Shown here one piece after another: positions 12,079 through 36,032 of a DNA stretch of 64,000 nucleotides. Made by a program: the position numbers and the translations under genes. The stretch lies in assembly GCA_002104985.1 (NCBI GenBank), contig MCGO01000095.1, positions 92,163 to 156,162 on the forward strand. Reading direction: 5' to 3'. The notes under the pieces are model-generated. The model was not told where the DNA came from and did no database searches. It was given only the letters and a program-made list of their open reading frames with translations. How positions within the stretch are numbered: the first letter of the stretch is position 1; the number at the start of each line of letters is the position of its first letter. The DNA is from Rhizoclosmatium globosum (taxonomy: Eukaryota > Chytridiomycota > Chytridiomycetes > Chytridiales > Chytriomycetaceae).

Positions 12079-12780
12079 TCAAGCCCTCGCCTCACTCAAC
12101 TTCTTCTGCGCTCTTTGGTTTTGAAACCAAATCCTTACTTTCCCTACATCCATACCCAGTTCCATCGCGATTTCCCTGACTCGCTCTTTACTCGGGTGCA
12201 GGTTCTCAGCCAGGAGCTCCTTCAACCGTCTTTTACACCACCGTGGTGTGGGAATTCTTTTGTACGGTTTAGTAGATGGGCTGGGCGAGTATGATGCAGA
12301 CGACCGGGATCGAGGTATTACAGTCGTTTGAGATGGAGAGTTATTGATTTGTTTGCATGGTTGTGATAGAGCCGAGGGTGGCGGAGCAAGTTGGCTTGGA
12401 CTGGCTGTGTTGGCGACGAAGCCCACTTCCGGCAGAGCAAGTTGTTTGGGCTGTGGTATGAGTGGATGCTTAGAATTCCGAGGCTCAAGTTCGATGGGCG
12501 GCGATGGAAAGCTGGCGAATTGATCAAGGGGACTTGGTTGCCAAAGACTCAAGTCAGCCTGGCTTTGAAGAACTTCCTTTGGCAGAGCAGCAAAGCGAGT
12601 GTGTGATATGTTCAGAATGGCCAAGAGACTGTGCGTCATAGTGAAGGAGGGTGGAGGGGTGGAGACTTGTGGTGAGATTGAGTGATTTATGGAGTATTAT
12701 CGAAAAGACACTATACCTTCATCTCCGAATATATTGTCTCCATGAAGAAACAACCTTGGTTTCAATAATGCGGGTATCAT
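12079..12780 (-). CDS. homeodomain transcription factor, array member 1
   Basis: The C-terminal homeodomain covers about the last 60 residues: YKRIPTPRWCKRRLKELL, helix 2 with REIAMELGMD, and recognition helix KVRIWFQNQRAQKK. It keeps the W-F-N-R core, with Gln where many homeodomains have Arg (WFQNQR). I prefer a two-exon model. Exon 1 is 12780-12717 (starts MIPALLKPRLFLHGDN) and a 51-nt GTATAG...CAAG intron joins it to 12665-12079. The joined N-terminus resembles that of array member 3 (LHxDxxF, then SHTRFAALPKE and LSLWQPSPLDQF). The start exon is inference; the homeodomain is certain. Confidence 0.85.
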
Positions 12781-12872
12781 GCTCCAACGAATCTGACTTG
12801 TGTGCAATGGGTGCGAAAAACGAATGTAATGCTAACTGCTTTTTTTAATTTTGGAATACTAATTAAATGAAT

Positions 12873-13422
12873 TCACTTCTTCATACGATTCTGATACGTT
12901 CGTTGGTTCTGAAACCAGACTCGCACTTTAATACGATCTAACCCAACTTCATCTGCGATTCTTGCGATGGATTGCGGCTTTGGGTGCGGATCGAGAGCGT
13001 AATATTTACGAAGAATGTTTCGTTGGGAGCGTGGAAGTATGTGTCTTTGAGGTAGGGTTGATTGAGAGGAGGTGCCAAGAGATAGGGGCGTTGGGCTTTC
13101 AGACTTGAGAGAATTTGCCTCAATGTGATTGATTGTTGCTGAGTTAGATGCTGCGTGCTGTTGCTGTAATTGATGTTGAAGGATTGGCTGATTGCCCCAA
13201 GACTGTTGTAGATTCACATGGAAATGGGGATGCAGCATTAGATTTGGAGGTTCAGGCTGTCCATCGCAAAGAAGCGCCAACAGTCTTGTTGGAAGATGTT
13301 CGTAATTAGAAAACAGTATACATTGTCGTTTTATCTTACTGATCTAGATCATCTAGATATGTTAGTTGGTCGAGGATGTTGGTTGTCGTTGAATTATCCT
13401 TGTTAAGGTTCGGATTGCTCAT
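12873..13422 (-). CDS. homeodomain transcription factor, array member 2
   Basis: The homeodomain is at the C-terminus, with HILPRSQRNILRKYYALDPH, then IARIADEVGLDRIKVRVWFQNQR, ending a few residues later (TYQNRMKK). The main exon lacks an ATG. A GTAAGA donor at 13339 and an acceptor at 13285 give a 55-nt intron and an upstream exon starting at ATG 13422 (MSNPNLNKDNSTTTNILDQL). The joined frame reads DDLDQLLALLCDG without a stop. The N-terminal region is His/Gln-rich. This copy is the most divergent of the four and the shortest. It lacks the SHTRFAALPKE motif of members 1 and 3. Confidence 0.85.
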
Positions 13423-13642
13423 GGAAGTATAGATAGTCGTTATAGTCTTTGTTGTATCCGAAATAACTTTTCGCTAACGTATTTTGAAGGATGGACTTGA
13501 GGAATCGTGGGTTAACCAGCTCTCCCTCTTCATCACAACGCAACCAACTCGCTACGTAGAGATGCCAATTTAAGAGGCGAAATATTTAAACTCCAACTTT
13601 AATATTATTCTATATTCTATTCTTCACAAGTAAATAAGACAA

Positions 13643-14374
13643 TCACGACCTTTCATTCAATTTCATCTGTGCTCTCTGATTCTGAAACCAAACTCTTACT
13701 TTCCGTGTATCCATATCGAGCTCTTCCGCGATTTCTTTGACCCGCTCTTTATTTGGGTGTATGTCGTCCGCAAACAGTTCCTTAAGGCGTTTTTTACATG
13801 TGCGTGGAGTAGGGACTCGCTTGTAATGTTTCGAATAGCAGAGGGAGATTGGCGAGGGCGAGGCCCTTGTTTGGTGGGTGGCTTGATCTTGGGTGTTATG
13901 CGGCATGATTGGAAGGTCGGCTTGTGGTACGTTGTGGTTTTCAGAGCGTGACAAGCTGGGAAAGCATGACGGATTCACGAGGGAGTGGTGGCTCTCGATT
14001 TGCGTGTGTGGTTGCGATAGAGCGGTGGGTGGCGGTGCGAGTGGGCTTGAATCGACAGTGTTGAAGGCGAAGCCCATATCGGGGAGAGGAAGTTGTTGAA
14101 AGTGGGGTATAGGTAACTGCTCAGACTTCTGAAGGTCGAATCCGAGAATAGGCGATGGATAGCCCACGAATTGATCCAGTGGACTTGGTTGCCAAAGACT
14201 CAAGTCGACTTGGCTATGCAGAGCTTCTTTCGGGAGAGCAGCGAATCGAGTGTGCGACATGTTCAGCATGGAAAGAAGACTGTGCATGTTTTGAGCTGCA
14301 GCAAAGAAGGGTGGATGGAGATTCGCGTAGAGATTGGAGAATGATTCATCGTGGAGACATGACCGCAAGACCAT
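13643..14374 (-). CDS. homeodomain transcription factor, array member 3
   Basis: The C-terminal homeodomain reads YKRVPTPRTCKKRLKELF, then VKEIAEELDMDTRKVRVWFQ and NQRAQMK, ending shortly after. It is a close paralog of member 1 through its whole length, sharing SHTRFAALPKE, SLWQPSPLDQF and SPLAPPP. I chose ATG 14374 (MVLRSCLHDESF) because its first residues align with member 1; a second in-frame ATG lies at 14287. It appears to be a single exon. The linker between the N-terminal motif and the homeodomain is Ser/Pro/His-rich and probably disordered. Confidence 0.87.
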   Translation of the reverse strand: MVLRSCLHDESFSNLYANLHPPFFAAAQNMHSLLSMLNMSHTRFAALPKEALHSQVDLSLWQPSPLDQFVGYPSPILGFDLQKSEQLPIPHFQQLPLPDMGFAFNTVDSSPLAPPPTALSQPHTQIESHHSLVNPSCFPSLSRSENHNVPQADLPIMPHNTQDQATHQTRASPSPISLCYSKHYKRVPTPRTCKKRLKELFADDIHPNKERVKEIAEELDMDTRKVRVWFQNQRAQMKLNERS

Positions 14375-14489
14375 CTCCCAATCCTCTTCAATTAAATAAG
14401 GTCCGATAAAGCAGATAATGCATTCAGCCACCCTCCGCCATACAACGTCATTTACAATATTATTATCTATTCAATTAAACAAAAACGTT

Positions 14490-15215
14490 TCAGGAACTAA
14501 TCTCCCCATTCGCTTTCATTTGACTCCTCTGATTTTGAAACCAAATCCTGATTTTCCTCGTATCCATACCTAGTTCCTCAGCAATCTCTGATACCCGCCG
14601 TTTATCTGGATGCGCGTCGATTGCCAGCAGTTCCTTTAACCGTTTCTTGGCAGCACGTGGAAGAGGCGTGCGTTTATATTCGCGTTTTGAGGAGGGGTTT
14701 GTGAGGGATGTTGGGTTTAGCTGTGGCGATTCGGATTCAGATGATTCGTAACTTTTGTGGCGGTTTGCTGCTGTTACAGTTGATATTACTGTTGAAGTGG
14801 ATGGTATCGAGGCGGAAGATACCGCCGTAGATGGACTGGATGGGAATGTTGAGTTTGGGTTGGGTATTTGGTACATCGGGAAATATGACGCAGTGGTGGG
14901 TTGAGACCATGGCGCGGGTGGCAACGTTGAGAATCTTTCAGAGTCAGGAATAGGTGGCGGGAGAATAGAGCTCCGTTCGGCTTCGAAAAACGTTTGTCCT
15001 GATGTTTGTACACTCAAAAGAGGGTAAGGCAAGGCAGTGAAAGGAGATGGTTGTTGCTGCTGCCCTTGAATTGGGTTGTTGAAAGAATACAAGACTGGAT
15101 ATGACGGTGATGGGATGGTTGGTGTCAAGCTGCCTTGCTTCTCATTCTCAGAATTGGCGGGAAAGAACGGACAATCCAGAAACGACATGAGATCCTCATC
15201 ATTCGATGTCGCCAT
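14490..15215 (-). CDS. homeodomain transcription factor, array member 4
   Basis: Single exon, 241 residues, ATG at 15215 (MATSNDEDLMSFLDCPFF). The C-terminal homeodomain runs YKRTPLPRAAKKRLKELL, then VSEIAEELGMDTRKIRIWFQ and NQRSQMK. The long N-terminal part is Pro/Ser/Thr/Gln-rich and shows no other domain. Its homeodomain is close to member 3, but its N-terminus differs from members 1 and 3. It is the most 5' gene of the array as transcribed. About 400 bp without any gene separate it from the SDR cluster. Confidence 0.88.
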   Translation of the reverse strand: MATSNDEDLMSFLDCPFFPANSENEKQGSLTPTIPSPSYPVLYSFNNPIQGQQQQPSPFTALPYPLLSVQTSGQTFFEAERSSILPPPIPDSERFSTLPPAPWSQPTTASYFPMYQIPNPNSTFPSSPSTAVSSASIPSTSTVISTVTAANRHKSYESSESESPQLNPTSLTNPSSKREYKRTPLPRAAKKRLKELLAIDAHPDKRRVSEIAEELGMDTRKIRIWFQNQRSQMKANGEISS

Positions 15216-15605
15216 CTTGATTTGTTTTTCGAAGGTGTTAGGGTTCAGGTTGAGAAGGAGAGCGGTTTTGAGGGGAAATGCCGCGAAAGTTGTTTTTTCG
15301 TGGGTCAGAAAGAAGAAATTCTAGACAGCCGCCAGCACATCTCCATTACCTTCAAATATCAGGCAGGATGCGAACCTTGGACTAAGTTGGATGGCCGAAA
15401 AGTTACGGATGCAAGTCCACAGCCCCCAAAAGCCACACAACTTCTCTATCATTTGAAATAATGGGACGTATAAAGCAAGAACACAGTGTGTCGGACTAAG
15501 AAATTGAATTTTTAAGGTCTTGACGCCTTCTTCTTGAATATGGAACCATATATTTATATCTGAACTAAACAATTTGCCAACGATATGTGTCTCTACACAA
15601 GGCCA
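15216..15605. other. intergenic region, no gene seen
   Basis: This stretch lies between homeobox member 4 and the SDR cluster, upstream of one and downstream of the other, both on the minus strand. No conserved frame or RNA gene was seen. It presumably holds the promoter of homeobox member 4. Confidence 0.4.
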
Positions 15606-16575
15606 TCAGGATTCAATCTTCTGCGCAATTAGTTTCTCACTCACGTCCCACAACTTTGTTGCCATGTCAGCGTCAGTTGCCTTAGGGTGCATATTCTCAC
15701 CCTGACTCAACTTACAATCGTAATAGTAACCCCCCTTCACAACATCTGGGCTCAATGCACAAAGAACAGTGGTAGAAGCACCCTCAGGAATACTCTTGAA
15801 TCTCTCCTTAAACATTCCCGAACCAAGAGCTCTGCGGAAAATAAGGCCAGCCATTTCACCAATGTTTGTAATTCCAATATGGCGCTTGAGGTCGGTACCA
15901 CTGACGGCGCCTGGGTGCAATGAGACGGAGATGATGTTTTGCGCGGCGTAGCGTGTGTTCAATTCTTTTGAGGACGTTCGCGAGTTTGCTGTGGCCGTAA
16001 CGTGCCCATGGCGTGTATTCTTTTGCAGCGTCCAGGTCTTCGAAGAGAATTCCTTCGAGTGGAGCAAAGATTTGGGCACCAGAGGAAAGGGTTACGATTC
16101 GCGATGGAGACGCGGGAGTTGCGGTCTTGATGAGGAGAGGGAGGAGTAACTGAGTCAAATAGAAATGGCCAAGATGGTTTACACCAAATTGGGTTTCAAA
16201 GCCATCAGTTGTAAATGACTTTGGGCACGCCATGACACCGGCATTGTTGATCAAAATGTTGAGTTCAGTATGGTGAGCAAGGAACTGAGCTGCAAATGCC
16301 TTGACTGATTTGAGGGAAGCAAGATCCAATTCGTAGAAAACAACAGTGGCAGTTGGATACGCTTTCTTGATTGCATCGATCGCAGACTGGCCATTTGTTT
16401 CTGATCTGGCAGTGAGCATAACGGTGGCTCCATGGCCTGCGAGTTGCTTCGCGGTTTCAAGGCCCAGGCCAGTGTTTCCTCCCGTAATTAGGATGGTCTT
16501 TCCTTCAAGTTCGGATTGAAAGGCTTTAGCGACTTGTTCGGCCTCGGAGGAGGCAGAGAAGGTTGTGATACCCAT
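15606..16575 (-). CDS. retinol-dehydrogenase-like SDR, copy A (frameshifted)
   Basis: The start MGITTFSASSEAEQVAKAF leads into the cofactor motif TGGNTGLG, then NNAGVMACPK and the active-site YGHSK. Near 15968 the frame breaks inside SKLANVL. Compared with copies B and C about five bases are missing where FAKE should begin, and the rest of the protein continues in another frame to KLIAQKIES. The family resembles RDH11-14/WWOX-type NADP-dependent reductases. It is the first of three tandem copies in the same orientation. Whether the gap is real or an assembly fault cannot be told here. Confidence 0.75.
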
Positions 16576-16707
16576 TTGGATAGTTTGAAATCAGCTTATT
16601 TTTGAATGTGTGCCCAGTTTCCACTATCTAACTTATAATTCTAACTAAGACTAATAGATTTGTCTATCAAAATAAATGAACAACGTAAAAGATAAGTGCG
16701 AGTCAAA

Positions 16708-17691
16708 TCAAAGCTTTTCAGCGATAAGCTTCTCGCTCACTTCCCACAACTTATAAGCCAATTCCACATCATTTGCTTTAGAATGCAAGCCTTCTCCCTT
16801 ACTCATCTTGCAATCATAGTAATATCCTCCTCCTTCGACGGGTCCCAAAGCACAAAGGACAGTTGTAGAAGCTCCTTCAGGAATGGTCTTGCTCCGTTCA
16901 GTTAGATTACACAAGAGCTCCTTGGGTCTTTTGAGAATATTGGCAACGGCATTCATCAAACTTGAAAAGCTTGAGTAGCGGTACAAGTCAGATGAGAAGA
17001 TCACACCTGGGTGGAGCGAAACGGAGACTACGTGCTGCAATCTGTAGCGATTATTAAGCTCCTTTGCGAAAAGGACGTTGGCGAGCTTGCTGTGACCATA
17101 GCGAACCCATGGGCTGTATGCTTTGGAGGCGTCCAAGTCATTGAACAAGATTCCTTCCTTTGGAGCGAAAAGGTGCTGTGCAGTGGAGGAGAGATTCACA
17201 ATACGGGCTGGAGTCTGGGCAGTTCCAGTCTTGAGAAGAAGCGGAAGAAGGAGTTGAGTTAAATAGAAATGGCCAAGGTGGTTCACGCCAAATTGGGTTT
17301 CAAATCCATCGACAGTCAGCGACTTTGGACAGGCCATGACACCCGCATTATTAACCAGAATGTGTAATTGAGAGTGGTTTGCGATGAACTGATCGGCAAA
17401 TGCCTTGACTGATTTAAGAGACGACAGATCGAGCGAGTAACAGACGGCATTGGCAGTTGGGTACACCTTCTTGATCGAGGCAATTGCTTCTTCGCCGTTC
17501 TTTTCTGAGCGAGAAGTCAGGACAACTGTGGCGCCGTGGCCCGCAAGTTGTTTGGCGGTTTCAAGCCCAATTCCGGTGTTTGCCCCGGTAACGATAACTG
17601 TCTTTCCGAGGCAGTCTTCTTGGAAGGCATCGGCGACTTGCTCGGCGGTTGAGGCTGCAGTGAAGGTGGGCGGGGTTCGGTCTTTGCTCAT
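16708..17691 (-). CDS. retinol-dehydrogenase-like SDR, copy B (intact)
   Basis: A complete 327-residue single exon. It has TGANTGIG (Rossmann cofactor site), NNAGVMACPK, the substrate-side Ser in NLSST and the catalytic YGHSK, followed by SLHPGV. This is the intact reference for copies A and C, which share 60% or more by eye. RDH/WWOX-like SDRs reduce retinal and other aldehydes or ketones with NADPH; the substrate here is unknown. It starts at ATG 17691 (MSKDRTPPTFTAAS). Confidence 0.88.
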   Translation of the reverse strand: MSKDRTPPTFTAASTAEQVADAFQEDCLGKTVIVTGANTGIGLETAKQLAGHGATVVLTSRSEKNGEEAIASIKKVYPTANAVCYSLDLSSLKSVKAFADQFIANHSQLHILVNNAGVMACPKSLTVDGFETQFGVNHLGHFYLTQLLLPLLLKTGTAQTPARIVNLSSTAQHLFAPKEGILFNDLDASKAYSPWVRYGHSKLANVLFAKELNNRYRLQHVVSVSLHPGVIFSSDLYRYSSFSSLMNAVANILKRPKELLCNLTERSKTIPEGASTTVLCALGPVEGGGYYYDCKMSKGEGLHSKANDVELAYKLWEVSEKLIAEKL

Positions 17692-17812
17692 TGATTTGTC
17701 TCTGGTTTCTTCAACCCAGGCTTGAAAGTTTGAAAACGTGATGTTTAACTTTACTAATAATGCCTCATGGATGGAAAGGAAAAAGATAAATATTGAAGTG
17801 AATACGCAGAGG

Positions 17813-18792
17813 CTACTTTTTCAATGCGTCAGCAACAAGCTTCTCACTGACATCCCACAAGCGTTTCGCCAAATCAGCATCACCAGCACGAGGATGCAAC
17901 TTTTCCCCTTCACTGATCTTACAATCATAATAAAACCCTCCACCAGTAATATCGCTCCCAACAGCGCAAAGCACCGTAGTCGAAGCACCTTCCGGAATAC
18001 TCTTGTTCCGTTCCCCCATCACAACGCCCAAGGCGCCTGGCTTCGTCAAAACCTGCCACACCGTATCAATCACATTCCAAAAATCAGAGTGCCTCTTCAA
18101 ATCAGTCCCAATTATTACCCCCGGATGCACTGCAACAGAAATCAAGTTCTTGGAGGCATACCGTGCATTAATCTCCTTAGCAAACAACACGTTCGCGAGC
18201 TTTGCGTGGCCGTAACGAACCCAAGAGTTGTATGACTGGTCTGCGTTCAAGTCATCAAACATGATTCCTTCGGGCGGTGCATAAAGGAACTGGCCGACGG
18301 AGGAGAGGGTGACGATTCGAGATGGAGAAGATTTTGAGGCTGATTTTAGGAGGAGGGGGAGGAGGAGTTGGGTTAAGTAGAAGTGGCCAAGGTGGTTGAC
18401 TCCAAACTGGATTTCAAAGCCGTCAGTAGTGAAGGTCTTTGGACAGGCCATTACACCGGCGTTGTTGATCAAGATATTCAGTGTTGAGTACGTTGCGAGG
18501 AATTGAGTAGCAAAGGCCTTGACTGATTGGAGAGACGCGAGATCCATTTGGAGAAAGGTGACGTTGGCTAAAGGTAAGCTTCCTTGATTGTTTTCACTGC
18601 GGCTTCTCCATTCTTTTCAGAACGAGAGGTGAAGATGACAGTTGCTCCATGGCCTGCGAGTTGCTTCGCGGTCTCAAGGCCCAGGCCAGTGTTTCCTCCC
18701 GTTACTAGGATTGTCTTGCCTTGGATTTGTGATTGGTAGGCCTTTGCTACTTCTTCTGCGGTAGAGGCAGCCGTGAAGACTGTGGTTGCCAT
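17813..18792 (-). CDS. retinol-dehydrogenase-like SDR, copy C (one-base frameshift)
   Basis: The N-terminal part (18792-18568) has TGGNTGLG and ends in KTIKEAYL followed by a stop. The remainder (from about 18570 down to 17813) continues in another frame as LANVTFLQMDLASLQ and on to the C-terminus, with YGHAK as the catalytic motif. One missing base near 18570, beside a CC/TTT tract, explains the break. No intron fits. Both halves are otherwise well conserved with copy B, so the defect is recent or a consensus error. Confidence 0.75.
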
Positions 18793-26355: not shown

Positions 26356-26359
26356 CGCT
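26356..26359. repeat. target site duplication, left copy (CGCT)
   Basis: The four bases directly before the left LTR equal the four bases directly after the right LTR (36029-36032). Confidence 0.75.
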
Positions 26360-27396
26360 TGTAACGTGTGCAGGCGCACGTTCTGGGGTTTGGTTCGGAC
26401 TTGGACTCGACACGTTTTCTTTATCTATTTTTGGAATTTTAGTTGGGGACTTTAGATTAGAACAGTGTCTATTATTGGAATAAAAAGTTGTTGCGAATTG
26501 AAAGGCGAGCGAGTCGATCAAGGTCGCCCAGAGCGAGACGGACCTCGAGCGAGCGACGGCGTCGACGTGTAACAGACGGGCGTGGCCGCTCTTAGGGAGA
26601 CGCCACCATAGGCCGGTTTCACGGTAGACGCGCCGGAGCGAGTACTCTGGATCAGCGAGACACAAGTCACCTCGACCGAAGGGAAAGGCCGAGTTAGGGA
26701 GTCCGATGCCGGATTAGCGAACTACAGGTTAGCGAACCAAAGGAGGTAGCAGGGGACGAATCGAAGAGAGGAGTGGGCTACCTCTGGACTGAACGAGTAG
26801 GCTGGATGTGTGGGGTACGTGTGCATGGCGGGGGCTGGGGCTAGCGTGTGTGGAGCACCCCAGGTTCCTCCGGCCACGGAGCACGTGCCTTGCCATGGGT
26901 TGTAGGCTTGAACGCTGACCCATGGATCTGTTGCACAGAGGAAGCGGTGGAAAGCCAGCGGCGACTGGAACTATCAGCGTAGACTCCACACTATGGACAT
27001 AAGGGCTATGGTGGCGCACCGAGGCGTTCAGGAATGTTAGCGAAGTCGGGTCTCTCGGGGGTAACGGATCTTGCCTCGGGAGTAACAAGCGGATGAGCGG
27101 AGTGGATGATGTAACGGTAACGGACTACTGGAACATTAGAAGGGAGTGGTAGAGCGTAGCGATGTGTTATTTCTTTTATTGTTCTTTATTTACGTCAGCC
27201 TGGGATTAGTGTCTTAGCGAGCGAAGACCTTGGGTCTTTCAGACAGTACCTGGAATCATTGGAGCCATGGAGGAGGGACCAGGGTACTGATTCGTACCGT
27301 GCTTTTTGGCAAGTAAGCGTAGACCTATGAGCGAGTGTTGTATGATGGTAGCAAGGATTGAAACCTGGAAAGGGGAAGCAACCCTTACTTGTTACA
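26360..27396 (+). repeat. left LTR (1,037 bp)
   Basis: Bounded by TG...CA with a 6-bp terminal inverted repeat TGTAAC/GTTACA. It is richer in GC than the internal region. It contains short open frames on the minus strand that recur identically in the right LTR; nothing suggests they are genes. Confidence 0.93.
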
Positions 27397-27399
27397 GAA

Positions 27400-27412
27400 T
27401 GGGGGCCCAACG
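27400..27412 (+). promoter_or_regulatory. candidate primer binding site
   Basis: TGGGGGCCCAACG begins 3 nt after the LTR. TGG pairs with the CCA end of a tRNA. I could not identify the tRNA. Confidence 0.45.
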
Positions 27413-27758
27413 TAAAAGCGACAACCTAGAGTTGTGAGTGAGATTGACCACACGGGAATGTGTGTAGTACCATGTATTAGACATGAGACTCCATGTAGTT
27501 TAAAACATGAGGCCTCTCTTAGTGAGAGCTGAACTAGTTTATTGGAGAAGCTATGTATAAATAAACAATTTAAAATCGAAGTAAAAGGATGTACTTTGTT
27601 TAAAGTTGGACTTATTTAGTTGGAATGGATTTTTGGGTTCAACGGCATGAACAAATAACAAAACATGATATCACTTAGATGACTGCGTGGCCATAAGCGA
27701 TGTGAAAATCGATTTCCGAATTTGGATTCGCGGATACATTCTGGAAACTCAGCGAATG

Positions 27759-28118
27759 ACAAAGACGTTGACCTCGTCATCCTTGACAGAGGCCGAGAAA
27801 GCAGTAGCTTGTCCAAGAGATTGTGACAAACAAACCGGAGTCGTCGATGAGTCCCTCACACTGGAACAACAGGAGCTGTTGGGAACACTACAATACTTTC
27901 GTGGAACTCGGATTCAAGACGATTTGATCCTGTATCAAGTACAGAGTACAAGATATGGATTTTCTACTTCGCCAAGCGAGTTTCTACAGAATGCTTTAGC
28001 ATTGTACTGTGAACTATCAACACCGGATTTGGCAACGTTGGACGATTTACCAGAACTTGTTGACATCTCTGATGATACATCAATGCCAGACCTAGTTTCG
28101 GATAATGAGGACGATTAA
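27759..28118 (+). CDS. retrotransposon ORF1, unrecognised (possible reduced gag)
   Basis: 119 codons from ATG 27759 (open from 27687 with a non-ATG start). The product is acidic at the C-terminus (LVDISDDTSMPDLVSDNEDD) and has no capsid fold, CCHC knuckle or protease motif that I can see. It lies where gag should be, but only about 770 bp separate the LTR from the large ORF, which is small for a gag gene. It is in a different frame from pol, with a stop-containing gap of about 47 nt between them. Confidence 0.4.
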   Translation, partial: TKTLTSSSLTEAEKAVACPRDCDKQTGVVDESLTLEQQELLGTLQYFRGTRIQDDLILYQVQSTRYGFSTSPSEFLQNALALYCELSTPDLATLDDLPELVDISDDTSMPDLVSDNEDD

Positions 28119-28168
28119 GAAGTCCAGAACCGTAATGACGAGTATACACGTGTTGTTTGACGTGAGAT

Positions 28169-31100
28169 GTGAAGCTAATAAAAGAACGATTGAGTGTACC
28201 ATTAAAATATTATGAAGAGTATGTCCCAGAAGAGAAACCGACGATGGTTCTTAAAGAAAATATACTCCTGAAACCAATGGAAGGAAGAATAGTTTTAGTA
28301 GAGTTGGATAGAAAGCTACCCAACAACCAAGAAAATTGCTTACTTCAAGGTTTCCCTGATATGGCGAGCAGAGGAATTCTCGTAGCAAATACGATATATC
28401 GGGTTGAAGATGTCAACTCGAAAGCAGTTAAAATGCAACTGACTTATGTGGGATCGGAGGAATTAAAATTAGATGAAGGAATATGCTTAGCAACCGTTCA
28501 ATGTGGGGACGTACCTGTATTAGATGTACCTAAAAGTATAGACGTGAACGATCAATCAATGATGATCGAAATGGCGTTACAGGCGAAAATGCATAATCCA
28601 GAGAATAACATAGCGTTTCTTAGCTGTTTAATGGAGGATAAACCACCCGAAACGCCTTTAGAAGAAGAGGTTAGGGTTCAACCTATACTGGTTGACGAAC
28701 TCGACTTTGTCGACCCACCGAATAAAGAGTATTCCGACGAAGACTCAGAGAAGGAGCCAGACGAGGCCGACTACGAAACGGAAGGACGGATGGAACTTTA
28801 CGTTTCATTAGATGAGGATTTCTTCGAGTCTGTGCTTGAACAGAAACCTACCTCAGCAAACAAACTGTTTAAAGAAAAGGACTTCCTCGACCCGATCTTA
28901 CAATCAGTAGGAAGGAAGAAACCCCGTACTCATAAAGAGTTCAGAGCGGTGATGTTGCATATAGAGGACATCGTCGATGAATTGTCAAAGAAGATTGACA
29001 AGAAATATGAATTAGAAGATGAAACTTCGCGTCGGAAGCGAAGAATACGTGAAAAACGCGCTGAATGGATAGACTCTATTCGCGACCCGAGATTTATTAA
29101 AGATTTAAAGACGCTTGACCCTTATACCTACACGAAGATAGTAGAATCGGAATTGGATCCTGACCCAATCATGAATTCAACACCAGGACACGATATTACA
29201 AAAGAGGATAAAAGAGATTACATGCCTGAAGAGTATAAGTCGAACGAAGAAATCTTTAATAAGATTGACTTGAGTCATATGGACTCCGACTTTTATGGCC
29301 CAGACACAAAAAGGAGGCTTCTAGACTTAATTGGAAAATATATTGATGTCTTTAAAAGTGATGTAGTGACAGGAACGAAAAGAGTCCCTGCACATAAAAT
29401 TGAGTTGAAACCAGGAGCTCGCATACCTCATTCACACCCATACCCGGAAGGGGCGGGTCGAACTCAGATATTGCGAGAACATATTGAGAAAATGTTGAAA
29501 GATGACGTAATTGAACCGTCAACGTCTCAATATGCCGCTCCAGTGGTATTGGCGAAGAAAGCCGATGGTAATTGGAGATTCTGTGCTGATTTTCGGAAAC
29601 TAAATCAGATAACGATACCTGACAGATACCCTCTACCAAGAATAGACGAGACCTTTGACATGGTTTCGGGAAAACATTATTTCTCATCAGTGGATTTGAT
29701 GAGTGGATTCTGGCAGATTCCTATGGACGAAGAGAGTAAAGAGAAGACTGCCTTTATCTCGTCACAAGGACTTTACCATTTTAAGGTTCTTCCGTTCGGG
29801 CTTACAAACTCACCACCAACATTCCAACGAATGATGGACGCAGTGTTAGCTGGGTATAAATTTGTTTTCGCGTTAGTATACGTGGATGATATTATAATTT
29901 ATTCGAAGACAGAGGAAGAACACTTTGAACACCTCGAGAAGGTTCTGGAGCGAATGTACTTGTATAATTTGAAAATAAAACCGTCGAAATGTGCACTCTT
30001 CCACCAAGAGTTACCATTTTTGGGACATGTCATTTCAAAGGACGGTTTGAGAAGAGATCCAGATAAGATTTCTAAATTGAGAAACTGGCCTGTACCAACG
30101 GGAATTAGACAATTACAGTCTTTCTTAGGTTTTGGAAACTACTTCCGAAGATTCATTAAAGATTTCGCGTCTATTGCAGCGCCGTTGTACTCGCTCTTGA
30201 AAGGAGATAAATCGTGGGTTTGGACAGAAGCATGCGAAGCAGCGTTTAAGAAATTAATAGCAGCTTTGTGTGACGATAAAATATTATACTTACCGGGAGA
30301 TAACGAAGAATATATCATCGAATGTGATGCTTCTGGCACGGCTTTAGGCGGTGCACTCTACGCAAAAGGACCGAAAGGAACTCGAGCAGATAGAAAACCT
30401 GTTGCATTCATTTCGAGAACGCTGAACGAAGTGGAACAGAAGTACTCGAACACAGACCGAGAAGGTCTTGCGGTAGTATGGGCTTGTGGCTGCTTCGATA
30501 AGTATATCTTCGATCGACCAGTTACTATCGAAACTGATCATTCAGCTCTTGTACAATTGGTGAAAAGCGGTGCTTTGACAGGAAGATTCGCGAGATGGGC
30601 TTACGCCCTTTCAGATTATGATTTGTCAATCATTCACGTACCAGGAAAAAACCAGGTTGTACCAGATACACTATCAAGAGTTGACTTCACAGGAGTGAAG
30701 CACGCGATTAAAAAAGAGGCTGATGGTCAAGAGACCGGGGATTCTGGAAGGGAGAACGAGAATACCCCTTTAAAAACTTTGTACCAAACATACATGTATA
30801 ATAAATATGCTACGACTGACAAACAGAGAGAGTTCGCAAAGAGCGAACACCGTAGATTGTTCTTGGAAACATATACTTCGAATCAGGTTGCAGAAGCAGC
30901 TGAACCTGAGAGCACGAACGATCTTATGACCGACTTAGGAACGAGACTTATGAATAAGTCTAAAACAGATAAGCGCCTGAAAAGCTTGAGAGACGTGCAG
31001 AAAGTACCGAGACAGAAACCTGAGACAATGCCAATCTCGAAGAGTATAAACGTTTCAACATGGAATATCAACGGATTGCGGAGTTTATTGAAGAAATACG

Positions 31101-34100
31101 ACGAAGAACACGACCTTAAACTCTTACCTTTGACAGAAAGAGTCGAACATTTCTTAAATTCACAGAGATGTAGTATCGTTTGTCTACAGGAAACACGAAT
31201 GGGTACGAATAATAAAAGTAAGAAGTTATTCGCTGCTTTAAAGGAGCTTCCGAACTGGAACTGTTCGTTGAATGATTCAGAAACAGGATACGCAGGAGTC
31301 GCAATCTTGTGGAGGAAGGAACTCTACGGAAAAGTAGAAGCCAAGACCATCGAAGGAATGGAGACATCTAAGGGCGGAGAGACACTTGTCTACGATGGAG
31401 ATAAAGGACGAGTGTTAACCCTGATCCTTGGAGATGTAGCAATAGTAAATACTTATGTACCGAGTGGAATGAGACACTCAGAGCGCCAAGAGTATAAATT
31501 GAAGTTTTTAGACGACCTCAAGACACACTGTGACAACTTGAGAGAAGATCACCTTGTAATCTTGTTGGGAGACATGAATATTGCGCCGACAATGAATGAT
31601 GTTTCGCCGATAGTATTAGAAGACAAATTGGTGAACCGATTCCCCTCAACTATTAGTAAGGAAGAACAGGAATGGTTCAAGAGAATGACTGAGAACTATC
31701 ATGATGGTTTTCGAGTGAAACATCCTGATGACTTGGGAGCGACTTGGCTGTTGAAGGCTAAGAATAAGACGGAATATCCCTTTTGGAGAATCGACCATGT
31801 GTTAATAGATAAGCGAATCGAAGAGGAAGGATTCGACGTTCGAATCGATGCAGACATGAGTGGGAGTGACCACTTGAGAGTCGAATTACACACGAGTTTG
31901 AAGGGATTCCCTAAAATAGGAGAAGAAATGTTAGTAGACACCACAGAGTGGCTGAATGGAAAGACAACGTCGGACTTTTCAACATTTGCGATGGAATCAA
32001 TAAAACTCTGTGAGGAAGAATTGGAGATTAATTTAGGAGTTATGTCCTTCACTCAAGGAGAATCCTTGAAAACATGGCGTGAGAAGCAGTTGGAGGATCC
32101 TTATTTAGGACCCATTATTCGCTTCAAAGAGAAGTTCGAAATACCCGATGACTTGGATGCTGAAACTATGGCTACAAGATCAAAGCGAATGGTTTTGGAC
32201 TTGAATGGCTTACTGTTCTTTGTTTCGGACTTAAACACAAATGTGGTTAGGAGGGCATCAGGAAGAATAGCTTTATGCGTACCTGACTCTTTGAAGAGAA
32301 CAATTCTTGAGAGGCACCACGATGATATCTACGCAGGGCATTTCGGCCATGCGAAGGTGTTACCCGTGTTGTTGGATAGATTCTGGTGGCCAGATATTGT
32401 TAAAGATCTGAGGAACCACGTGGAATCGTGTGAAACCTGTAATAAATCTAAGGACTTTCATACGAAAACTGGTTACTTACATCCAATACCTTTGGGAGAG
32501 TTTGCAATGGAGCGAACGTTCCTAGATTTTATGGATACGGGAAAAGAGAACCCTAATGGAAACCGTTATATAATGGTGTGGGTAGATAGCTTTACGAAGT
32601 GGGCTGAAGCCATCCCTATTCCTGACTTGACAGGGGAAACTGTTTGTAAAGCATTAGTGACTCAGATATTCTGTAGGTACGGAATACCTGTCTTCTTACA
32701 CACTGATGGAGGACCGCCGCTTGATAGTACATTGGTGCATCAACTGAGCCGATGGTTGGGATTCGAAAAGACCTTTACCGCGCCTTATTGGCCGAGAGCA
32801 AATGGACCTGCCGAAAGGATGATCAAAACTCTATCACAGGAGATAAGAGCGTATATTGATAAATTTAAGTTTAACGATTGGGAAGAGATACTCCCTTTTG
32901 TAATGTTTGCGTATAGAACGCACCCACATGGAACCACTAACGAGACACCCTACTTTGCATGGCATGGTAGAGACGCGAGACTACCTACGGATATGTTCGT
33001 TGGAATTAGTCCCAGGGACGTTAACCCTGATGACGCGGTTTACGAAGAAGAAGCTGCGGCTGTCGAAAGGATTGAAGCTGAAACGAACATACATATCGAG
33101 GGAAACGCGGAAAGCAATAGGAAACGGGAAGGGCTTCCTAGGATTTCTGTTGCCCAGTTTGTTAGTGTTGAGCAGTTTATAGATAAGTGTTGCAAACACC
33201 TGTACGGATACACCAAAGACGATCAACCTTTGTGGATGATGCTAAGAGACATCCTCGAAAGACACGACTTGGATGTGTTGTGTTTAGTGTACGATCCTAA
33301 AATGAAGTCAAAAGTTAGTCCTTTCCCAAATTGTATTTATTTGAGAGATGGATCGAGAGCTGACTTACGGGACGCGGTGTATCGTTTGAGCCCAGGGAAG
33401 GAGAACGGTTTTGACGAAAGAATGGGTAAGGTACCTGTTTCTCGACTTGTGGCCGTGTATAGCCGAACGAATAGTTTGGAGATTGGACCTTCGCCTGAAG
33501 ATCTTGAGTATAACGATGGCAGACCGGTTGTAACCTTAGGACGCGAACAAGGTGTCGGAGTCGTGAAGTGCACTTATCGTTCGTACGAGAAAGAGGAATA
33601 CTTAGACAAAACTGTTAGTCTTGTTGATCCTCGAAGGAGAGATTTACATTTATTTGGTGCTGAACCGCTTTGGGACAAGGCAGGAAAATTCTGGATAATA
33701 AACCCACCAGAATATTCAGTGGGAGTAAAGTCGACCGAGACCTTCGTATTCGAAGAGAGCCGAGGGAATATCTTTGAAGTTTTTGTCGATGAAGAAGCTG
33801 ACGAGGAAGTTGAGTTAGAAGAGGCAGTTGATCGACCCGTAGTCGATACTAGAAAACTCAAGGATGAGGAGCGGCGTAAACTGTTTATGAAGTACATCCT
33901 TAAAGGACTTCACGCAGCTCAGAGCGTTATAAAAGAAAAGGTGGCCAAGGCAAAAGAGGCCCTTAGGGAAAAATCGTTGGAAAACGACCGCGCACCTCAT
34001 ACCTTTGAGATCGGCGACAGAGCTTGGTTAGCGGTACCTCTTGAAAGTGAGATGCAGAGATTGAAAGCTCCAAAGAAATTTATCTTTAGATGGGTTGGAC

Positions 34101-34843
34101 CTGTAAGAATCATGGATCAGTCTAAAGGTGATTCAGGAACTTTATTTAGAGTGGTGGAAACTTTTCCGGGGGGAGAAGTTGTTCAACGTGAAGCACATGT
34201 GAGTAGGTTAAGACCCTATGTTCATAGGAGACCAATAGAGTCAGCTGAAAGGGCAGTGCGACAAGTGTCAAAAGAAGAGGAGTTAAAAGCTGAAATAGCT
34301 GCGTGGAAGAAACAAGGGCGTATCCTAACGAGGAGACCTTTGTACTCTCACGAACCATTGTTTGCGACTCACCCTTCTTTGAGAAGAAAGATGGAAGAGT
34401 ATGACCATACCGAGGACACAGATCCTTTACATAAAATTTTGGCCATTACTCATGTGGGACGAGAAGGAACAGGATTCTTTTATGTGGTAAAGTTGAAAGG
34501 TGTAAGAGAATTACAAATGCATACCGACGATACACTACCGGAGGAAACATTAAAGATTTTCTGGGGTTACCAGAAACAGATAAAAAGTAGGGCTTACACG
34601 GTGTATCGGAAATGGATTGATGATCGGTATAAAGGAGTGGATGACTTACCCAGAGACATTGTACCTGACGATGAGTTTCTGTTGGGACCTGTGACTGTTG
34701 GCACTTATATAACTAAAGCTGCAGCAGAGCTTAAGAGAACAGAGAAAAGGCGGAAACAAGTGGAAGGACAAGGGGGAGGTCAGAATCAAAGGCCTCGGAG
34801 AAGTAGTAGGTTAGGAGGTGAACAAACACAAGAGGAGGAATGA
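28169..34843 (+). CDS. retrotransposon Pol polyprotein with RT, RNase H, APE-like endonuclease and integrase
   Basis: Open for 2,224 codons; the first ATG in frame is at 28244. Residues are counted from 28169. RT spans about 430-640, with YVDD near 571. RNase H spans about 710-820 (ECDASG, TDREGLAVVWA, ETDHSALV). The ExoIII/APE1-like domain spans about 960-1245. Its catalytic motifs are all present: WNINGLR, CLQETRM, NTYVPSG, GDMNIAP, RIDHVLID, GSDH. The integrase HHCC finger spans about 1380-1430. The DDE core has its second Asp in HTDGG and Glu in NGPAERM, 35 residues apart. Then come an unassigned domain (about 1650-1850), a GPY/F-like module ending HVSRLRPY and a possible chromodomain-like tail. 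No aspartic protease motif lies upstream of RT. Confidence 0.93.
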   Translation: MKLIKERLSVPLKYYEEYVPEEKPTMVLKENILLKPMEGRIVLVELDRKLPNNQENCLLQGFPDMASRGILVANTIYRVEDVNSKAVKMQLTYVGSEELKLDEGICLATVQCGDVPVLDVPKSIDVNDQSMMIEMALQAKMHNPENNIAFLSCLMEDKPPETPLEEEVRVQPILVDELDFVDPPNKEYSDEDSEKEPDEADYETEGRMELYVSLDEDFFESVLEQKPTSANKLFKEKDFLDPILQSVGRKKPRTHKEFRAVMLHIEDIVDELSKKIDKKYELEDETSRRKRRIREKRAEWIDSIRDPRFIKDLKTLDPYTYTKIVESELDPDPIMNSTPGHDITKEDKRDYMPEEYKSNEEIFNKIDLSHMDSDFYGPDTKRRLLDLIGKYIDVFKSDVVTGTKRVPAHKIELKPGARIPHSHPYPEGAGRTQILREHIEKMLKDDVIEPSTSQYAAPVVLAKKADGNWRFCADFRKLNQITIPDRYPLPRIDETFDMVSGKHYFSSVDLMSGFWQIPMDEESKEKTAFISSQGLYHFKVLPFGLTNSPPTFQRMMDAVLAGYKFVFALVYVDDIIIYSKTEEEHFEHLEKVLERMYLYNLKIKPSKCALFHQELPFLGHVISKDGLRRDPDKISKLRNWPVPTGIRQLQSFLGFGNYFRRFIKDFASIAAPLYSLLKGDKSWVWTEACEAAFKKLIAALCDDKILYLPGDNEEYIIECDASGTALGGALYAKGPKGTRADRKPVAFISRTLNEVEQKYSNTDREGLAVVWACGCFDKYIFDRPVTIETDHSALVQLVKSGALTGRFARWAYALSDYDLSIIHVPGKNQVVPDTLSRVDFTGVKHAIKKEADGQETGDSGRENENTPLKTLYQTYMYNKYATTDKQREFAKSEHRRLFLETYTSNQVAEAAEPESTNDLMTDLGTRLMNKSKTDKRLKSLRDVQKVPRQKPETMPISKSINVSTWNINGLRSLLKKYDEEHDLKLLPLTERVEHFLNSQRCSIVCLQETRMGTNNKSKKLFAALKELPNWNCSLNDSETGYAGVAILWRKELYGKVEAKTIEGMETSKGGETLVYDGDKGRVLTLILGDVAIVNTYVPSGMRHSERQEYKLKFLDDLKTHCDNLREDHLVILLGDMNIAPTMNDVSPIVLEDKLVNRFPSTISKEEQEWFKRMTENYHDGFRVKHPDDLGATWLLKAKNKTEYPFWRIDHVLIDKRIEEEGFDVRIDADMSGSDHLRVELHTSLKGFPKIGEEMLVDTTEWLNGKTTSDFSTFAMESIKLCEEELEINLGVMSFTQGESLKTWREKQLEDPYLGPIIRFKEKFEIPDDLDAETMATRSKRMVLDLNGLLFFVSDLNTNVVRRASGRIALCVPDSLKRTILERHHDDIYAGHFGHAKVLPVLLDRFWWPDIVKDLRNHVESCETCNKSKDFHTKTGYLHPIPLGEFAMERTFLDFMDTGKENPNGNRYIMVWVDSFTKWAEAIPIPDLTGETVCKALVTQIFCRYGIPVFLHTDGGPPLDSTLVHQLSRWLGFEKTFTAPYWPRANGPAERMIKTLSQEIRAYIDKFKFNDWEEILPFVMFAYRTHPHGTTNETPYFAWHGRDARLPTDMFVGISPRDVNPDDAVYEEEAAAVERIEAETNIHIEGNAESNRKREGLPRISVAQFVSVEQFIDKCCKHLYGYTKDDQPLWMMLRDILERHDLDVLCLVYDPKMKSKVSPFPNCIYLRDGSRADLRDAVYRLSPGKENGFDERMGKVPVSRLVAVYSRTNSLEIGPSPEDLEYNDGRPVVTLGREQGVGVVKCTYRSYEKEEYLDKTVSLVDPRRRDLHLFGAEPLWDKAGKFWIINPPEYSVGVKSTETFVFEESRGNIFEVFVDEEADEEVELEEAVDRPVVDTRKLKDEERRKLFMKYILKGLHAAQSVIKEKVAKAKEALREKSLENDRAPHTFEIGDRAWLAVPLESEMQRLKAPKKFIFRWVGPVRIMDQSKGDSGTLFRVVETFPGGEVVQREAHVSRLRPYVHRRPIESAERAVRQVSKEEELKAEIAAWKKQGRILTRRPLYSHEPLFATHPSLRRKMEEYDHTEDTDPLHKILAITHVGREGTGFFYVVKLKGVRELQMHTDDTLPEETLKIFWGYQKQIKSRAYTVYRKWIDDRYKGVDDLPRDIVPDDEFLLGPVTVGTYITKAAAELKRTEKRRKQVEGQGGGQNQRPRRSSRLGGEQTQEEE

Positions 34844-34974
34844 GGTTTTTGATTGAGAATAGGGAGTTGTGACTTTTGGGGCTAGATAGTTTTCTTCAAG
34901 GTGGAGTTTTTATACCCAGTTCAAGAAGTCAGGAAAAGTTGGAACCAGTTGTGTATCCAAGGGGCGGATACATA

Positions 34975-34990
34975 GTTAAAAAAGAGGCTA
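34975..34990 (+). promoter_or_regulatory. candidate polypurine tract
   Basis: A run rich in A and G (AAAAAAGAGG) lies directly before the right LTR, where plus-strand priming takes place in LTR elements. It is followed by a few non-purine bases before TG. Confidence 0.5.
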
Positions 34991-34991
34991 C

Positions 34992-36028
34992 TGTAACGTG
35001 TGCAGGCGCACGTTCTGGGGTTTGGTTCGGACTTGGACTCGACACGTTTTCTTTATCTATTTTTGGAATTTTAGTTGGGGACTTTAGATTAGAACAGTGT
35101 CTATTATTGGAATAAAAAGTTGTTGCGAATTGAAAGGCGAGCGAGTCGATCAAGGTCGCCCAGAGCGAGACGGACCTCGAGCGAGCGACGGCGTCGACGT
35201 GTAACAGACGGGCGTGGCCGCTCTTAGGGAGACGCCACCATAGGCCGGTTTCACGGTAGACGCGCCGGAGCGAGTACTCTGGATCAGCGAGACACAAGTC
35301 ACCTCGACCGAAGGGAAAGGCCGAGTTAGGGAGTCCGATGCCGGATTAGCGAACTACAGGTTAGCGAACCAAAGGAGGTAGCAGGGGACGAATCGAAGAG
35401 AGGAGTGGGCTACCTCTGGACTGAACGAGTAGGCTGGATGTGTGGGGTACGTGTGCATGGCGGGGGCTGGGGCTAGCGTGTGTGGAGCACCCCAGGTTCC
35501 TCCGGCCACGGAGCACGTGCCTTGCCATGGGTTGTAGGCTTGAACGCTGACCCATGGATCTGTTGCACAGAGGAAGCGGTGGAAAGCCAGCGGCGACTGG
35601 AACTATCAGCGTAGACTCCACACTATGGACATAAGGGCTATGGTGGCGCACCGAGGCGTTCAGGAATGTTAGCGAAGTCGGGTCTCTCGGGGGTAACGGA
35701 TCTTGCCTCGGGAGTAACAAGCGGATGAGCGGAGTGGATGATGTAACGGTAACGGACTACTGGAACATTAGAAGGGAGTGGTAGAGCGTAGCGATGTGTT
35801 ATTTCTTTTATTGTTCTTTATTTACGTCAGCCTGGGATTAGTGTCTTAGCGAGCGAAGACCTTGGGTCTTTCAGACAGTACCTGGAATCATTGGAGCCAT
35901 GGAGGAGGGACCAGGGTACTGATTCGTACCGTGCTTTTTGGCAAGTAAGCGTAGACCTATGAGCGAGTGTTGTATGATGGTAGCAAGGATTGAAACCTGG
36001 AAAGGGGAAGCAACCCTTACTTGTTACA
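34992..36028 (+). repeat. right LTR (1,037 bp)
   Basis: Same length and, wherever compared, the same sequence as the left LTR. It ends GTTACA at 36028, followed by the second CGCT target copy. Confidence 0.93.
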
Positions 36029-36032
36029 CGCT
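36029..36032. repeat. target site duplication, right copy (CGCT)
   Basis: Matches the four bases before the left LTR (26356-26359). A 4-bp duplication is short but within the range for Ty3/mdg4-type integrases. Confidence 0.75.

Follow-up and report, generated by a model that had tools for sequence, protein, structure and literature searches.

Why should a retrotransposon that is bounded by long terminal repeats (LTRs) and furnished with a DDE integrase also encode an apurinic/apyrimidinic (AP) endonuclease? This question is raised by an element in the window analyzed here, a 64,000-nucleotide stretch of the Rhizoclosmatium globosum genome (contig MCGO01000095.1, positions 92,163 to 156,162). 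A preliminary description, made from the sequence alone, had reported that a complete ExoIII/APE1-type endonuclease domain (EEP) lies between the RNase H and the DDE integrase within an LTR-element Pol. Pfam, the NCBIfam xth profile, and the LTR pair all bear out this arrangement, the Pol frame is unbroken, and the six motifs that had been quoted (WNINGLR, CLQETRM, NTYVPSG, GDMNIAP, RIDHVLID, and GSDH) are all found in its translation.

28169-34843, plus strand: Pol open reading frame (ORF), 2,224 codons; no defined start (GTG, gag absent upstream)
29555-30034, plus strand: reverse transcriptase (RT; RVT_1), residues 463-622, YVDD retained (Pfam)
30302-30619, plus strand: RNase H (RT_RNaseH), residues 712-817 (Pfam)
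31058-31873, plus strand: ExoIII/APE1-type endonuclease domain (EEP; Exo_endo_phos), residues 964-1235, E=4.1e-18 (Pfam)
32279-32452, plus strand: integrase zinc finger (Integrase_H2C2), residues 1371-1428 (Pfam)
32522-32791, plus strand: integrase core (rve), residues 1452-1541, with D, D, E at 1453, 1513, and 1549 (Pfam and alignment)

The order RT-RNase H-integrase recognized by Pfam is that of Ty3/mdg4 elements, and the window RT groups with Ty3-type RTs in a tree built among database Ty3-type Pols, with no Ty1/copia rows. Judged by these features, the element is a Ty3/mdg4-type LTR retrotransposon. A hallmark of long interspersed elements (LINEs), the AP endonuclease, and a hallmark of LTR elements, the DDE integrase, thus stand together in one Pol, and they do so in several families and at two positions.

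Kinship of the endonuclease domain

With 136 bits, the window domain exceeds the curated cut-off of the xth profile (TIGR00633), which is 99, and all five of the element domains scored lie above that cut-off. When nine element domains are aligned with 46 free-standing ExoIII-like proteins, ten of ten catalytic columns are invariant (APE1 numbering). The domain is 24-30% identical to the solved AP endonucleases of the set ExoA, ARP, APE1, and Mth0212, and its structural model is a good AP-endonuclease fold. The profile search and the structural model, both of which had been proposed as checks on the preliminary description, therefore agree with it. The tryptophan of the AP pocket (W251 of the domain) is present in all nine window-type domains shown, P0004 excepted, and is replaced by F or M in the two more distant layouts introduced below (layouts II and III).

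The best match to repair AP endonucleases has an E value of 2.5e-40, whereas the best match to LINE endonucleases (L1-EN) has an E value of 4.8e-4. By profile and modeled fold, the domain belongs with the repair AP endonucleases and is distant from those of LINEs. An origin from a LINE endonuclease was rejected on this difference in likeness. The kinship of the domain with AP endonucleases of the ExoIII/APE1 class is well shown, and AP-site incision is its predicted activity.

Recurrence in the genome

Profile matches were collected over the whole 57-Mb genome (xth, 67; H2C2, 60; RNase H, 66; RVT_1, 132; rve, 79), and layouts were tallied around the 60 H2C2 places using 62 of the 66 RNase H rows. 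The resulting counts take in decayed copies and are lower bounds, because scoring was limited to the best candidates. The order RNase H-EEP-H2C2 is found at 38 of the 60 places and EEP-H2C2 without an RNase H match at 3. The EEP adjoins the integrase at 41 places, of which 34 are of the window type (layout I) and 7 belong to a lineage distant from it (layout II). At a further 7 places the order is EEP-RNase H-H2C2 (layout III), and there the EEP precedes the RT. RNase H-H2C2 occurs without an EEP at 11 places, and one H2C2 is isolated. The places of layouts II and III, as given by profile matches, are these.

Layout II: C383:218347-222159, C90:238-241k, C387:45-48k, C13:469-472k, C203, C397:156-159k, and C54
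Layout III, EEP ahead of RT: C368:96181-100122, C412, C301:86637-90977, C383:74804-79141, C146, C411, and C347

In the layout II sequence L055, RT-RNase H-EEP-H2C2 precedes an integrase core in which D, D, and E motifs are recognizable by eye, with the Pfam rve match below threshold. In L056 (C368, layout III), the EEP retains its catalytic motifs. The layout II RT is 46%, 44%, and 36% identical to the layout III RTs of C301, C368, and C146, respectively, and 28-33% identical to those of layout I; the layout II EEP is 43% identical to the C368 EEP. Because the RTs of layouts II and III are nearest to one another and their EEPs share this identity, the EEP has changed its position in Pol inside this branch.

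Relatives in public databases and the number of captures

When Pol residues 440-1600 were used as a protein query, 539 matches were obtained, and among the 120 listed, four carry an EEP in the slot after RNase H and before the integrase, namely P0002 and P0003 (JGI), and P0004 and P0007 (ENA). The EEP identity of these four is 31-43%, and the JGI label of P0002, exodeoxyribonuclease III, is an automatic name. The integrase D, D, and E residues show no variation among the window Pol and these four. With the EEP region alone as the protein query, 1985 candidates yielded no match at E 0.001, which marks a limit of that search since the wider Pol query found EEP-bearing Pols. The notion that the domain is peculiar to the window element was rejected on the four public proteins. 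The search for elements of RT-RNase H-EEP-integrase order that the preliminary description had proposed has thus yielded 41 genome places and four public proteins, and the arrangement, far from being absent from other copies, is shared by them.

In the RT tree, from which P0007 was left out as a fragment without an RT, the window-type rows and P0002-P0004 form one clade (support 99/98; SH-aLRT 96 in another RT tree), and P0009, which has no EEP, adjoins it. In the EEP tree, ten window-type domains, P0007 included, likewise form one clade (100/99). Because the window-type branch is one clade in both trees, it looks as though the EEP was gained there once and then inherited. The EEP tree separates the window-type domains from those of layouts II and III, but a single clade is not rejected (p-AU 0.41); for the RT, joining the lineages even improves the tree slightly (p-AU 0.585), the only layout II row there having a very long branch. 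A single capture for all lineages is thus compatible with both tests, and two captures are possible. The cellular rows of the EEP tree are mostly unnamed database proteins, with no eukaryotic APE1 among them.

Three scans of viral_contigs returned no element, their one find being a giant-virus-like AP endonuclease. That gene (L057:1685-2575) lies beside a topoisomerase II-like gene on a giant-virus-like contig, the genes being named by eye. Among the database proteins, P0129, P0135, P0164, and others are free-standing proteins in which a HhH-GPD glycosylase-type domain (PF00730) is joined to an EEP, and in P0044 a single frame combines a Ty3-type Pol with helicase domains and with a match to a viral fusion glycoprotein.

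Selection on the domain

The ratio of nonsynonymous to synonymous substitution rates (dN/dS) of the EEP is at most 0.17 in seven of eight near pairs of copies (C214-C366, 0.016; C114-C401, 0.054; C114-C246, 0.048; C401-C246, 0.17; C363-C114, 0; C113-C168, 0.093; C113-C384, 0.040). Six far pairs are saturated at synonymous sites, with the proportion of differing synonymous sites (pS) at 0.77-0.93 against 0.10-0.38 for nonsynonymous sites (pN). On these comparisons, the EEP domain is under purifying selection.

These data bear on whether the EEP might be an inert passenger or an artefact of assembly. The window copy is without gag and protease, and the EEP frame is broken in several copies, as such a reading would expect. 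An assembly chimera was nevertheless rejected on the equal domain order at many genome loci, and because that identical order recurs both at many independent loci and in four public proteins, the arrangement is not a product of chance either. Together with the low dN/dS values and the invariant catalytic columns, this makes a passenger or artefact exceedingly improbable.

Borders of the element and route of insertion

26360-36028, plus strand: whole LTR element (identical LTR pair and Pol domains)
26360-27396, plus strand: 5' LTR, 1037 bp, TGTAAC...GTTACA (comparison of the LTR pair)
34992-36028, plus strand: 3' LTR, 1037 bp, no difference from the 5' LTR (LTR comparison)
26356-26359, unstranded: CGCT, possible 4-bp target-site repeat, left copy (border sequence; chance about 1 in 256)
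36029-36032, unstranded: CGCT, possible 4-bp target-site repeat, right copy (border sequence)
27400-27412, plus strand: candidate primer-binding site TGGGGGCCCAACG (by eye; no tRNA assignment)
34978-34987, plus strand: candidate polypurine tract AAAAAAGAGG (by eye)
27397-28176, plus strand: 780 bp from the 5' LTR to Pol, at the gag/protease position (blastn against sister copies)

Since the two LTRs are identical, a young insertion is suggested. The candidate primer-binding site adjoins the inner edge of the 5' LTR and the purine tract precedes the 3' LTR, both as judged by eye; no tRNA gene was found within the window. When pieces of the sister copies on contigs C43, C372, and C324 were compared by blastn, positions 27397-28176 matched none of them, and matching begins at 28177. 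Because these pieces show no 5' LTR, the segment may be a normal leader. The C43 copy carries a zinc-knuckle gag (zf-CCHC), a DTG motif (by eye), and Pol, all in one frame.

Insertion of the element is best ascribed to its DDE integrase, because the D, D, and E residues are invariant and the mark of such an enzyme, a short target repeat, may be present. The preliminary description had also entertained a second integration route, and the EEP might indeed nick target DNA, either for site choice or as a LINE-like way of integrating. LINE endonucleases of the same superfamily do nick target DNA, the L1-EN match exists although it is weak, and the borders of copy C363 show no target repeat, which leaves one of the two copies checked, that of the window, with a possible one. 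Yet the far greater likeness of the EEP to repair AP endonucleases and the invariant integrase residues weaken this route, and the LTR pair and possible 4-bp repeat of the window copy speak against it as well. In addition, all 35 xth matches above cut-off pair with an integrase zinc finger, whereas eleven LINE-like pairs, EEP then RT without that finger, reach only 28-85 bits and fall below the cut-off. We regard target nicking as improbable and rank it after the exonuclease reading considered below.

The window copy has no chromodomain by Pfam; P0002 and P0004 have one above cut-off, and the match in P0007 is slightly below. Positions 32969-33800, after the integrase core, have no Pfam match (best E 0.26), and relatives have an equivalent long region, which in P0007 gives a weak protease-like match. 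Elsewhere in the window, the minus strand at 12079-18547 holds three neighboring homeodomain ORFs and three neighboring short-chain dehydrogenase ORFs, both groups apparently tandem duplications. The genes of the window suggest a fungus as host.

Proposed function

We propose that the Pol of an ancestral Ty3/mdg4-type retrotransposon acquired a cellular ExoIII/APE1-class AP endonuclease, with RNase H before it and integrase after it. The captured domain, its catalytic residues retained, would be produced as part of Pol and would incise the element's own cDNA at abasic or otherwise damaged sites, clearing blocked 3' ends to leave a clean 3'-OH for the linked RT. The RT could then resume from that end, and the finished full-length cDNA would be inserted by the DDE integrase. 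We give this account, in which a captured enzyme repairs or trims the cDNA of the element itself, an even chance of being right. A wider claim, to which we incline somewhat less, is that a widespread LTR branch depends on a Pol-encoded AP endonuclease for cDNA repair or proofreading, acquired in one or two old captures, kept by selection, and placed either before the RT or after RNase H.

Several observations weigh against the cDNA repair account. Of the 60 integrase places, 12 are without an EEP, so the domain is not required by every element of the genome, and one of these copies (C384:148971-151020) has the RT score of the C257 family with only about 750 bases from RNase H to H2C2; here the EEP has apparently been lost from a member of a window-type family. 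The eighth near pair, C257-C62, has a dN/dS of 0.64 at a dS of 0.02, and the C62 domain is frame-broken. In the far pairs, the EEP diverges faster than the RT and the integrase core; C130 and C257, for example, are 73% identical in EEP against 97% in RT and 91% in integrase core. The W preceding the first catalytic N is missing in some families. Cutting at abasic sites in single-stranded cDNA could harm the element, and the catalytic residues cannot separate AP incision from use as a 3' exonuclease.

This last point leads to the nearest rival, in which the main work of the EEP is that of a 3'-to-5' exonuclease or of an RNase H-like helper, either proofreading for the RT or removing the tRNA and polypurine primers. 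ExoIII and APE1 possess activities of this kind, and the EEP adjoins RT-RNase H in layouts I and II. These elements are also long (copy C363 spans 131561-143676 by its LTR pair, or 12.1 kb, and frames reach 3,901 codons), and long elements might profit from such an enzyme. The W251 pattern is neutral on this matter. Because the RNase H of the window-type Pol is intact, no second enzyme is needed for primer removal. Although rotifer LTR elements with a DEDDy exonuclease in ORF3, cited in PMC5718144, offer a precedent for an added exonuclease, we consider this rival unlikely overall.

It is also conceivable that the EEP acts on the host, for instance against its DNA repair, cell cycle, or defense, instead of on element DNA. 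APE1 has side roles in animals, and none of the present results points directly to a host role. The EEP is bound in Pol between RNase H and integrase at 41 places, an arrangement that favors a task within the particle or on the DNA it contains. We consider a host role less probable still than target nicking.

Should the wider claim of a branch that depends on a Pol-encoded AP endonuclease be right, reverse-transcribing elements would carry their own base-excision step. Our results suggest that some retroelements bring a DNA-repair enzyme of their own to cDNA synthesis, and they offer a handle on whether abasic sites or 3'-end damage limit reverse transcription in cells.

Comparison with known systems

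The preliminary description knew of no LTR family with this layout. A limited literature search, in which novelty is weakly tested, likewise found no earlier description of the RT-RNase H-EEP-integrase order, and as far as could be seen it is undescribed. The available parts of PMC5348765 and PMC9926174 mention no AP endonuclease in an LTR element, and those of the latter name AP endonuclease for chytrid LINEs. In the classification review PMC5718144, AP endonuclease is listed among the features of non-LTR elements; its rotifer elements likewise join an added nuclease to an LTR element, but that DEDDy nuclease is of another fold and is encoded in a separate ORF after pol. In KnitGypsy-Dnmt3, as presented in PMC5890265, a captured DNA-acting enzyme also sits in the Pol of a Gypsy element, there an algal one, under purifying selection; that enzyme is a methyltransferase, and both host and branch are different.

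With the chromodomain branch of Ty3/mdg4 (Gypsy, Metaviridae), the window element shares the LTR pair, the RT-RNase H-integrase order, and the DDE residues, and its relatives add the zinc-knuckle gag and DTG motif of the C43 copy and the chromodomains of P0002 and P0004. It differs in having an AP endonuclease in Pol and, in the window copy, no Pfam chromodomain. With the ExoIII/APE1 enzymes (ExoA, ARP, APE1, and Mth0212), the domain shares fold, catalytic residues, and profile; unlike them, it sits in a retroelement polyprotein and its identity to the solved ones is low. LINEs with an apurinic-type endonuclease also join RT and EEP nuclease in one protein. They have no LTRs, no DDE integrase, and an endonuclease before the RT, whereas the window element has both LTRs and integrase, the EEP lies behind RNase H in layouts I and II, and its likeness to the L1 endonuclease is weak. 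The element extends by one combination the polymerase-endonuclease grid used to classify mobile elements.

A parallel in position is found in lentiviral pol, where a dUTPase lies between RNase H and integrase. Both enzymes occupy the same slot and concern uracil in DNA, but the dUTPase blocks its uptake, whereas an AP endonuclease handles an intermediate of uracil repair.

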